Shown here: positions 45,539 to 49,384 of the stretch, piece by piece | How the letters are laid out: each line of letters begins with the position of its first letter | How positions within the stretch are numbered: position 1 is the stretch's first letter | NCBI RefSeq assembly: GCF_000970305.1 | Contig: NZ_CP009517.1 | Coordinates: 558,001-622,000, forward strand | Source: Methanosarcina barkeri 3 | GTDB lineage: Archaea; Halobacteriota; Methanosarcinia; Methanosarcinales; Methanosarcinaceae | Length of the DNA: 64,000 nt | Direction of reading: 5' to 3' | The notes under the pieces: model-generated | The model's database searches: none | What the model was told of the DNA's origin: nothing | Seen by the model: only the letters and a program-made list of their open reading frames with translations | Position numbers and translations under genes: made by a program

Positions 45539-45882
45539 GTGCCAGGAATAAGTGCTTCAGATTACTTTTGTATGAACTATATTGGGGAAAAAAGCTCCGG
45601 ACTTCGCAATCCTGCAGAGAATCAGAAAGGAAGCCCGTTTCTGGGTAGGCTTCGAATGACATTTACATAATCATAGTTAGGACAGCGCTTTCTAAATCTT
45701 ACTTCCTTTATTGCGGGGGTAGGAAAAATAAGATGGTATTGATTACACTTATATATGCCCGTAACATGTATTAACCTTATACTAGGCGAGCCACATTGCA
45801 GGACAACGGGTACGAGATATTCACTTGACTGTACTACTTATCCCTATTTTTTAAGAGTTACTGCATAACACAGGTAACAAAG
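45539..45882. other. Spacer between integrase relic and kinase gene
   Basis: It contains a hairpin (GAAGCC...GGCTTC, about 45631-45654) that could end transcription from either side. No ORF is supported. Confidence 0.45.
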
Positions 45883-45993
45883 CTTTATATCAATTTGCTA
45901 AGTTAAGTACCGAACATAACTTTATATCAATTTGCTAAGTTAAGTACCGAACATAACTTTATACCAATTTGCTAAAGTAAATGCTGAATTCAG
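45883..45993. repeat. 37-bp repeat duplicating the 3' end of the kinase gene
   Basis: Two perfect copies (45883-45919, 45920-45956) and a third, diverged copy that contains the histidine-kinase stop codon and last codons. The extra copies lie beyond the stop. Confidence 0.9.
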
Positions 45994-47308
45994 TTCCGTT
46001 ATTCCTTTTAAGTTCAATAAAACCTTCAATTTGTTCCACAAGGATGTTTACAATCTGGAGACCGAGAGAGTTTGTATTACGATAATCTATTTCCTCTGGA
46101 AATCCATCACCAGTGTCTGCCACTGTTAAAACAAATTCAAAATCCGTTCTACTTATACAATTTGGTTTTACTCCTAGGTTTCTGACACTTTTGTCTTTGT
46201 TTTCATATTTTTCTACTGTATGAAGATTCACGTAAATTTTCCCACTTTTTTGGGCTGGAAAAGCATACTTCAGGGCATTTGAGACCAGCTCGTTGACAAT
46301 AATTCCAAGTGGGATTGCGGTATCCATGTCCAAGTGTACATTTTCAAGTTCAAGCTTCAGGCTAATTTCCTCGTTTTTTAATCTGTATGAACGAAAAAGA
46401 TTAGTAGTGAGTTTCCGGAGATAATCTGCAAAGTCAAGATTATCTACTTCGTCTCCTTTGTAAAGTTCTTCATGAATTAAAGCCATGGAAGTAACCCGGT
46501 TCTGGCTCTCACGAAATGCTTCAAGCGTTTTTGTATCGGTAGATCTGTCAGCTTCAAGGCTTAGAAGAGACGAGATTACTTGCAAGTTATTTTTGATCCT
46601 GTGGTGGATTTCTTTTATACGGGCTTCGTGCGTTTTTTTAAGAGTAAGGTCTGCAGCTTTTCTTTTAGTAATATCACGAATTAAGCCCTGTACATATCTT
46701 TGTGATCCGGAACCTGTTGGAAATTTCTGGAGAATTTGAAGAACCCATCTCGTTTCCCCGTTCTTCCTTAATATTCTGTACTCTATTTCGGTAGAGATAT
46801 CTGACTCATACATAGCTTTTTTCAGGTTTTCGCAAGCCAATAAACGATCTTCGGGTATAATTATTTCTACCCACTTAACTTTACCTGAAAGAAAATCTTT
46901 TTTATTGTAACCTGTGACACCTTCTATGTCTCCATCTATGAACACTGGTACGAAGTTTTCTTTTACTCTGAGTCCTATAAGACCTTCAATATTTTGTTCT
47001 AAATAACAATCTTTTTCCTTTGAGTGGTTTGTTTTTTTAGTTTCAATCTTATAAACAGATTTAAGCCATTCCTGACCTTCTTTAGTTTTCATGAGGACTT
47101 CCAGTAGATCAGGAATTCGAGTCTCATGTTCCTTTAATTCCTTAGTCTTTATATACTCGTACTTTCCAAAGAATTCAGATAATGCCAGGGATACTACATC
47201 GGAGATGCTAGAAAATTCAGGAGTTTTAGCTAGTTCTAGGCATTGTTTTTTAATCCACGGAGATACTGTGGCGTTAATTTGTTCTTTTTTCTTTATGACT
47301 TTGGCCAT
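45959..47308 (-). CDS. RHH-PAS-histidine kinase fusion
   Basis: A 449-residue sensor kinase without membrane segments. Residues 8-45 form a ribbon-helix-helix-like DNA-binding segment (QINATVSPWIKKQCLELAK, then SSISDVVSLALSEFF); then come a linker, a PAS/PAC domain (about 103-220), a HisKA_2 phospho-acceptor (EIHHRIKNNLQVISSLLSLE, about 233-252) and an HATPase domain with N box NELVSNALKYAFP, G1 DTGDGFPEE and G2 SLGLQIV. Start ATG at 47308 follows GGAG. A kinase with its own DNA-binding domain could signal directly to a promoter. It diverges from an RHH gene. Confidence 0.88.
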   Translation of the reverse strand: MAKVIKKKEQINATVSPWIKKQCLELAKTPEFSSISDVVSLALSEFFGKYEYIKTKELKEHETRIPDLLEVLMKTKEGQEWLKSVYKIETKKTNHSKEKDCYLEQNIEGLIGLRVKENFVPVFIDGDIEGVTGYNKKDFLSGKVKWVEIIIPEDRLLACENLKKAMYESDISTEIEYRILRKNGETRWVLQILQKFPTGSGSQRYVQGLIRDITKRKAADLTLKKTHEARIKEIHHRIKNNLQVISSLLSLEADRSTDTKTLEAFRESQNRVTSMALIHEELYKGDEVDNLDFADYLRKLTTNLFRSYRLKNEEISLKLELENVHLDMDTAIPLGIIVNELVSNALKYAFPAQKSGKIYVNLHTVEKYENKDKSVRNLGVKPNCISRTDFEFVLTVADTGDGFPEEIDYRNTNSLGLQIVNILVEQIEGFIELKRNNGTEFSIYFSKLV

Positions 47309-47853
47309 TTGCAATCTCCGTTTGTTAACTTGATACCTAGTTCTTTAAAAATGTATATATAATGTAGTGAAGTTTTCACTACATTACATAGTAATTACTC
47401 TATATACTGGAAAAATCTTAAGGGAATCAGTTAAATCAAAGACGTCGAGGGAATGAAAAATATTAATTTCTTATTATGGCCCCCTTTTCTAAAGACAATC
47501 TATTTAGGGTTAACTAACTCAGACTAGCCGTTAACTAACTCAGGCTGGTAATATGATTCTAGTAATATGATTCCAAAGCATGTTTGCAAAGTTGATTTTT
47601 GATCAGTTTGCTGATCATTCAGCTCCCTTTAAATAAGGAATTTGTTTCGGAATCGATGCTAACTACTATTTTTCTGGTTAATGATTCTTATTAGTCTTAG
47701 GAAATCTAGGAACGAGATATGTGTTTTTGTAAGTATCTTTTCCACATTTGGTGAATAAGTCATACTATTGAATGAATTATTCATATAAATAGGTTTGCGT
47801 TGAATTTTAAATCATAGAATCTTTTATATTATAGGCAACAGTATGATTTAGTA
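47309..47853. other. Divergent promoter region between the two RHH-containing genes
   Basis: About 545 bases. It holds TATA-like boxes for both sides (TATATATAATG near 47355 and CTTTTATATTATAGG near 47821) and an inverted repeat with GTAGTGAA/TTCACTAC arms near 47371-47387 (ATGTAGTGAAGTTTTCACTACAT), a good operator candidate just upstream of the kinase gene. Confidence 0.55.
47371..47393. promoter_or_regulatory. Palindrome upstream of the kinase gene, operator candidate
   Basis: ATGTAGTGAAGTTTTCACTA continues to CAT, giving arms ATGTAGTGAA and TTCACTACAT around a 3-base centre: a near-perfect 10-bp inverted repeat. It lies about 65-85 bases upstream of the kinase start and close to its TATA-like box, as expected for a dimeric RHH regulator. 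Confidence 0.55.
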
Positions 47854-48219
47854 ATGAAAGAACGATTTACTATTTCAATGGACAATGATCTCGCACGATG
47901 GCTTGACCAATTATGTGATGAAAAAATATTCAGCAGCCGAAGTCATGGAATTGAGTTTTGTGTTAAACAAATAAAAAAAATGAATATCGAAAAAGTTGTA
48001 CTTTTACACTGGGGTAAAAAAGAGGTAGAACCTGTTTTTTTATCAAAAAAGAACGCTCAAATACTTACCAAGATATCTGAAGAACTAAACCTTAGTCCTG
48101 AAGATACTCTGGGCATTCTTTTGTATAAAGAGCTAGAAAATATAAGTAAAAATACTAAGGAGTCGGAAAAAGAAGACCTAAATGAAAAGGAAATATCTAG
48201 AAAGATTTTCTTTGAATAA
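47854..48219 (+). CDS. Ribbon-helix-helix protein
   Basis: A 121-residue protein. The N-terminal RHH is clear (MKERFTISMDNDLARWLDQL, then FSSRSHGIEFCVKQI); the remainder is helical and charged (KKNAQILTKISEELNLSPED, ENISKNTKESEKEDLNEKE). It is a probable dimeric DNA-binding repressor. It faces the RHH-kinase gene across a promoter region with a palindrome; both N-termini are related in type, so a shared operator is plausible. A 15-bp triplicate repeat follows its stop. Confidence 0.75.
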   Translation: MKERFTISMDNDLARWLDQLCDEKIFSSRSHGIEFCVKQIKKMNIEKVVLLHWGKKEVEPVFLSKKNAQILTKISEELNLSPEDTLGILLYKELENISKNTKESEKEDLNEKEISRKIFFE

Positions 48220-48220
48220 T

Positions 48221-48265
48221 ATTCAGCTCACTTTCATTCAGCTCACTTTCATTCAGCTCACTTTC
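48221..48265. repeat. Minisatellite, 15 bp x 3
   Basis: Three perfect copies of ATTCAGCTCACTTTC begin 2 bases after the RHH gene stop codon. Confidence 0.92.
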
Positions 48266-48988: not shown

Positions 48989-49384
48989 ATGTTTATAAAG
49001 GCTCGTTGTCCAGTTTGCGGTACGAATGTGTACCATAACATAAGGTTACATACTCTGGAGCACCTCAACTTTGAAGGGGATAAACAGGCTTGTAGGTATA
49101 TGGTTGAAAATATTGAAGTGACTGATTCTCTCACAGAAGAAGAGTTTGTTAGGAACATTTTGCAAGGCCTGCAAAGAGTTATCCATGATGGAATTGAGGT
49201 AGAAGTTCTGGCCGGGATCTTGAAGGAAAATTATGGGATTACAGGTACTTGCTGTAGTGGACTTATTGAGAGAATCCAGCTTGAGCTTGATATGTATTGT
49301 CCAGACCGAAAAAAGCTTTATTTTGCTGATCCTGAAGAATTGGGAAGCTATTCAAAGAGAAATAGCCTCTTCATTTGTATATGA
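48989..49384 (+). CDS. Zinc-finger-like small protein (131 aa)
   Basis: An uncharacterised protein. Its N-terminus carries CPVCG at residues 8-12 and two His (LHTLEHL, about 21-25), giving a Cys2His2-like zinc site, followed by a helical body with several Cys (GTCCSG, MYCPDRK). The start ATG follows AGAGGGAAAAAG and a TATA box at the right distance, so expression is credible. No family is recognised; a regulatory role is only inferred from the zinc finger. Confidence 0.65.
   Translation: MFIKARCPVCGTNVYHNIRLHTLEHLNFEGDKQACRYMVENIEVTDSLTEEEFVRNILQGLQRVIHDGIEVEVLAGILKENYGITGTCCSGLIERIQLELDMYCPDRKKLYFADPEELGSYSKRNSLFICI

Follow-up and report, generated by a model that had tools for sequence, protein, structure and literature searches.

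A Methanosarcina sensor kinase with an N-terminal RHH domain, apparently captured together with its promoter and a candidate operator

Background

Histidine kinases are expected to reach DNA by way of a receiver protein. A gene in a 64,000-nucleotide stretch of Methanosarcina barkeri 3 (contig NZ_CP009517.1, positions 558,001 to 622,000; referred to below as the window, to whose numbering all coordinates refer unless a locus is named) raises the question of whether a kinase might instead carry a DNA-binding domain of its own. The gene lies divergent from another, here called RHH2, that also encodes a protein resembling the ribbon-helix-helix (RHH) family. What the N-terminal domain of the kinase is, where it came from, what it might bind, and whether RHH2 is its partner are taken up in turn.

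Architecture of the kinase

The kinase is a protein of 449 residues encoded on the reverse strand (45959..47308). Its reading frame is open over 45959-47314. The start codon that is conserved is an ATG at 47308, preceded by GGAG; the frame stays open as far as a TTG at 47314, six bases upstream of the ATG, in just the window and one near-identical genome (G020). Pfam places three domains on the chain, PAS_3 (46682..46945, residues 122-209; 1e-15), HisKA_2 (46385..46612, residues 233-308; 2e-32) and HATPase_c (45974..46315, residues 332-445; 1e-9), all on the reverse strand. The H-, N- and G-boxes are intact, the phospho-accepting histidine lying in HisKA_2 (H-box HHRIKNNLQ at 235) and being followed by the N- and G-boxes of the ATPase domain (NELVSNA and DTGDGFP). 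There is no transmembrane stretch (the highest mean hydropathy over 19 residues, 1.19, falls within the HATPase domain), and neither Pfam nor hydropathy finds the MASE3 membrane domain that is present in a paralogue (L142). No Response_reg match is found within the kinase, and the closest of 17 such matches in the genome is ~50 kb from it, outside the window. The sequence-only reading of this locus had described RHH, PAS, HisKA_2 and HATPase modules in one soluble protein, with no response regulator gene nearby; the first of these statements is borne out by domain matches, RHH family homology (below) and hydropathy, and the second by the distance to the nearest receiver.

Neighbours of the kinase locus include Mch and NikR, and M. 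spelaei figures among the relatives in the closest genomes. Direct repeats of ~37 bp (CTTTATATCAATTTGCTAAGTTAAGTACCGAACATAA) occupy 45880-45990 and overlap the kinase gene at its 3' end; further short tandem repeats lie at 47509-47572 and 48219-48265.

The N-terminal domain

RHH proteins (the MetJ/Arc/CopG superfamily) share a beta-alpha-alpha unit and form intertwined dimers that bind dyad operators, with a beta-ribbon in the major groove of the DNA. Pfam makes no RHH call on residues 1-50 of the kinase (47159..47308, reverse strand), and the assignment comes from relatives of this segment. In a search that yielded 60 relatives, residues 1 to ~89 are 77-82% identical to small stand-alone Methanosarcina ORFs of about 105-130 aa; more distant stand-alone copies occur in Methanoperedenaceae and other genera. 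(Residues 51-89, at 47042..47158 on the reverse strand, are common to the stand-alone RHH proteins, and with them the captured part ends.) Family members match ParD (TIGR02606; six members, best 4e-6), haloarchaeal CdrS (NF058555; 4.5e-5) and Pfam RHH_8 (5e-5), and profile-profile comparison of the family with NikR, ParD and RHH2 (hhalign) gives a probability of 93% and 3e-7 over 44 columns. On this homology of family members and profiles, the N-terminus is accepted as RHH. An AlphaFold2 monomer model of the kinase, built from a shallow alignment of ten sequences, does not resolve it (pLDDT 48).

Between the two main subclades of fused kinases, omega of the RHH region is 0.02-0.08, versus 0.11-0.26 for PAS, HisKA_2 and HATPase: in this comparison no other segment of the kinase is as constrained as the RHH part. 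Within one very close pair (L034/L037) it shows no excess constraint over the core.

The stand-alone RHH proteins and RHH2 (at 48199-48219) have a short conserved C-terminal tail (RKVFFE, RKVILD, EYILE, DDIIE), seen at L011, L015, L053, L054, L051, L092 and L099 as well as in RHH2. The tail is possibly a docking motif; the fused kinase lacks it.

Distribution of the fusion

The RHH family is represented in 63 of the 186 genomes of the order. Its members there lie in short ORFs, with two exceptions: a set of ten orthologous kinases in Methanosarcina, and a single protein of 658 aa. Of the ten Methanosarcina genomes, nine carry the fusion intact. In the tenth, Methanosarcina ERenArc_MAG2 (L039:9316-10640), a frameshift in the ATPase domain splits it into ORFs of 353 aa and 85 aa, and would signify either a pseudogene or an assembly error. 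The 658-aa protein belongs to another genus of Methanosarcinaceae (G178; L162:2408-4384, reverse strand) and is organized as RHH-PAS-PAS-HisKA_2-HATPase. Its fusion is independent, and the architecture thus arose at least twice. Searches extended to the class (238 genomes) and to the phylum (393) find no further RHH-kinase fusions.

Origin of the fused kinase

At the same locus in six other Methanosarcina genomes (L042, L044-L048), the same kinase core carries a hydrophobic N-terminus instead of RHH. These membrane-type kinases are likewise divergent from RHH2 and from a gene for a small Cys-rich protein, referred to here by its CPVCG motif. In the kinase-core tree, RHH-types and membrane-types each make up a clade of their own (100/100 for both); the two are sisters (93/91), and both are nested among MASE3-PAS-HisKA_2 membrane kinases. 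The simplest history would be a single replacement of the membrane end by RHH, the polarity of which is given by the MASE3 outgroup and by the retained promoter region. A species tree built on Mch is compatible with a single replacement, but places one genome with the fused kinase (G024) before the split, and because of this placement a more complex history of the locus, involving transfer or loss, is possible.

The replacement seems to have brought more than coding sequence. A block upstream of the kinase gene (47311..47440, reverse strand) is homologous to the promoters of two stand-alone RHH genes, at L040 and L041. Fused-gene promoters align with these from -120 to -1 with scores of 67-93, while the top score in 300 Markov-resampled copies is 50 (0/300 reach the observed scores); further upstream of -120 the homology fades in most pairs. 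The matching block ends in an apparent fossil (47415..47441, forward strand; ILRESVKSK versus MLMEPTKSK), the 5' end of an AbrB-like ORF divergent from the stand-alone RHH gene, and L039 keeps KMQRNWQI versus KVWRNWQI in this possible fossil. Beyond it lie a spacer of ~290 bp (47441..47732), which matches neither the sister-clade nor the stand-alone RHH promoter, and a region (47733..47852) that retains homology to the sequence between RHH2 and the kinase in membrane-type genomes. The promoters of the membrane-type kinases do not align with that of the fused kinase. These alignments indicate that the kinase promoter came along with the captured RHH domain. The stand-alone gene of the M. acetivorans-like locus L042 lacks a homologous promoter, which counts against this explanation.

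Stand-alone RHH genes occur at three loci (L040:6424-9905, L041:3747-8670, L050:993-3069) together with variable cargo and a CPVCG gene; L041 and L050 also carry a tyrosine integrase. The cargo consists of a BanI-type restriction enzyme and an N6/N4 methylase in L040, and of unknown genes in L041. The combination of RHH gene, CPVCG gene, cargo and integrase looks like a cassette with exchangeable cargo, and it is in the sense of this integrase and cargo context that the stand-alone RHH genes may be called mobile. Viral contigs, phage and plasmid collections yield no relatives of the stand-alone RHH proteins; viral contigs and phages yield none of the CPVCG protein. In the window the latter (CPVCG...CC...CPDR) is encoded at 48989..49384 on the forward strand. 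It is a conserved partner of RHH genes, its homologues repeatedly adjoining them (L040-L042, L049, L050, L052-L054); it has no convincing family match, and its C-terminal part looks winged-helix-like by eye.

The candidate operator

The kinase promoter contains a palindrome (47356..47390) with 16-bp arms, a 3-bp spacer and one mismatch. Both in the window and in barkeri-like genomes its significance is high (none of 100 Markov-resampled copies reaches the window palindrome), and in two of the latter (L035/L036) it is perfect. A regulon was sought genome-wide and none was found, the palindrome having one exact site in the whole genome. The sequence-only reading had seen a palindrome at 47371-47393, in a promoter region shared by the kinase and RHH2. 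A palindrome suited to a dimeric RHH protein is indeed there; it is larger and slightly displaced, and belongs to the promoter of the kinase, unshared.

Within the palindrome, the dyad core TAGTR-N7-YACTA (47365..47381, reverse strand) keeps its place, -72 to -75, in 11 of 12 promoters: those of both stand-alone genes and of nine among the ten fused ones. Its arms covary, TAGTG..CACTA being replaced by TAGTA..TACTA in a compensatory change of G..C to A..T, while the spacer differs. A second small dyad of the array, AGTAATTACT (47390..47399), is also present in the stand-alone promoters of L040 and L041. TAGT/ACTA enrichment common to the wider RHH family is not significant. The palindrome abuts a conserved TATA-box-like sequence, TTATATATA (47354..47362, reverse strand), and binding should therefore repress. 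Two considerations strengthen the case for the kinase itself as the natural ligand of this candidate operator: nine of the ten genomes with the fusion have no other RHH family member (the one additional copy in the tenth is degraded, with five stops), and the kinase promoter is homologous to stand-alone RHH promoters. Counting against the proposed autoregulation are the broken downstream half-site in G024 (L038) and the absence of a similar palindrome from the promoter of the G178 kinase.

How the kinase may act

Going by their families, RHH and HisKA_2 modules each form dimers. In the preferred explanation, a stand-alone RHH regulator gene, of a type that occurs in islands associated with an integrase, would have displaced the 5' end of a chromosomal PAS-HisKA_2 kinase of MASE3-type membrane descent, its promoter and operator being captured along with it, and a soluble sensor kinase would be the product. 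The kinase dimer would bind two TAGTR half-sites 12 bp apart, abutting its own TATA box, and repress its own synthesis; the state of the PAS and kinase modules would most likely modulate DNA binding or be reported by it; alongside this, the kinase may still pass phosphate to a distant receiver. The explanation draws on the architecture, single origin, promoter homology, dyad conservation, the unique site and the strong constraint on RHH; DNA binding, autorepression and coupling to kinase state are its predictions from sequence. Capture of an RHH gene with its operator, giving a cytosolic autoregulated sensor kinase that acts on its own promoter, is considered probable, with ample room for doubt. 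A bolder form of it, offered tentatively, makes the protein a one-component kinase: PAS and autophosphorylation would change DNA binding by the RHH domain of the same chain, receiver-free, through capture of an island regulator with its operator, and this would have been repeated independently in a second genus.

The RHH domain might, on the other hand, serve only for autoregulation of the expression level or for dimerisation, with signalling through an unlinked response regulator and with kinase activity having no effect on DNA binding. A conventional unlinked receiver partner is possible, and the intact kinase motifs, the Response_reg matches elsewhere in the genome and the commonness of orphan HisKA_2 kinases in Methanosarcina all accord with one; but a DNA-binding domain in place of the sensor's membrane end, and the recurrence of the architecture in G178, are then left unexplained, and the proposal is regarded as rather doubtful. 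It is unlikely that the RHH domain has lost DNA binding and is a mere dimerisation or docking module, the palindrome being a relic or bound by another protein. A dimeric RHH can act as a protein interface (as is known for the family), the AlphaFold2 model gives no RHH structure and the operator is half broken in L038; yet the most constrained part of the kinase is precisely this domain, and the palindrome is perfect in L035 and L036, genomes with no other RHH family member.

The divergent gene RHH2

RHH2 (47854..48219, forward strand) encodes 121 aa with a NikR-like N-terminal RHH and is a conserved neighbour of the kinase. The second RHH gene announced by the sequence-only reading is thus present across the intergenic region, its RHH and NikR matches being weak but in register, and the pair is conserved across genomes, a point on which that reading had staked itself. 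The AlphaFold2 model of RHH2 (pLDDT 62; shallow alignment) has NikR as a weak top match in Foldseek (E 0.14). Residues 57-95 (48022-48150) are predicted, with moderate model confidence, as strand-helix-helix, which suggests that RHH2 may hold a second RHH-like unit in one chain, a tandem RHH as in AvtR/TraY. The RHH2 promoter has conserved TCATAC (47760) and GTATGA (47841) motifs and a further site at 47812; these lie near -94, -42 and -13 of RHH2 in genomes of both kinase types. They flank the RHH2 TATA region and resemble NikR-type half-sites. Association of RHH2 with the locus predates, or is independent of, the RHH of the kinase.

A two-gene switch in which the kinase and RHH2 heterodimerise or share the palindrome, as the sequence-only reading had proposed for two RHH-like proteins whose genes adjoin in nearly all genomes having both, is rejected as very improbable: the two RHH domains are only remotely similar (hhalign 5%), the gene pair persists where the kinase has neither RHH nor palindrome, and the conserved promoter motifs of RHH2 differ from those of the kinase, which is also why heterodimers seem unlikely.

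Comparison with known systems

The only precedent for an RHH-kinase found in the literature is the Arc-type RHH-HisKA-REC proteins of Lokiarchaeum GC14_75 mentioned by Galperin et al. 2018 (PMC5847659), archaeal proteins that likewise join RHH to a histidine kinase. These come from another phylum and combine HisKA with a C-terminal REC that the window kinase lacks; no PAS is reported for them, and origin and operator are not described. The terms 'RHH' and 'DNA-binding' do not occur in the text of a survey of M. acetivorans kinases published in 2025 (PMC11784639); this is expected, the membrane form being the one present in the M. acetivorans-like genome G014.

A canonical two-component system has an adjacent cognate response regulator, whereas the receiver nearest to the window kinase is the one ~50 kb off. 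LtrR and the REC-HTH response regulators of methanogens likewise couple histidine-kinase signalling to DNA, but there the DNA-binding domain is on the receiver protein and here it is on the kinase. RHH regulators of the ParD/CdrS/NikR type, the fold family of the kinase N-terminus, also have a dyad operator near their own promoter; they are small and stand-alone, and lack kinase modules. The MASE3-PAS-HisKA_2-HATPase kinases of Methanosarcina, the parent clade in the tree, have the same core (55-63% identical), with a membrane sensor where the window kinase has RHH and with a different promoter. The membrane-type PAS-HisKA_2 kinase of the same locus is the syntenic sister, divergent from the same RHH2, with a hydrophobic N-terminus in place of RHH and without the palindrome. 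Here, then, a membrane-derived kinase appears to have gained its own DNA-binding domain with a matching operator (binding being predicted), and sister species keep the membrane form at the same locus, which makes a before-and-after pair. Laboratory genetics exists for Methanosarcina, and the pair allows tests of two things: what orphan archaeal kinases do in the absence of response regulators, and how island regulators become domesticated into host signalling.
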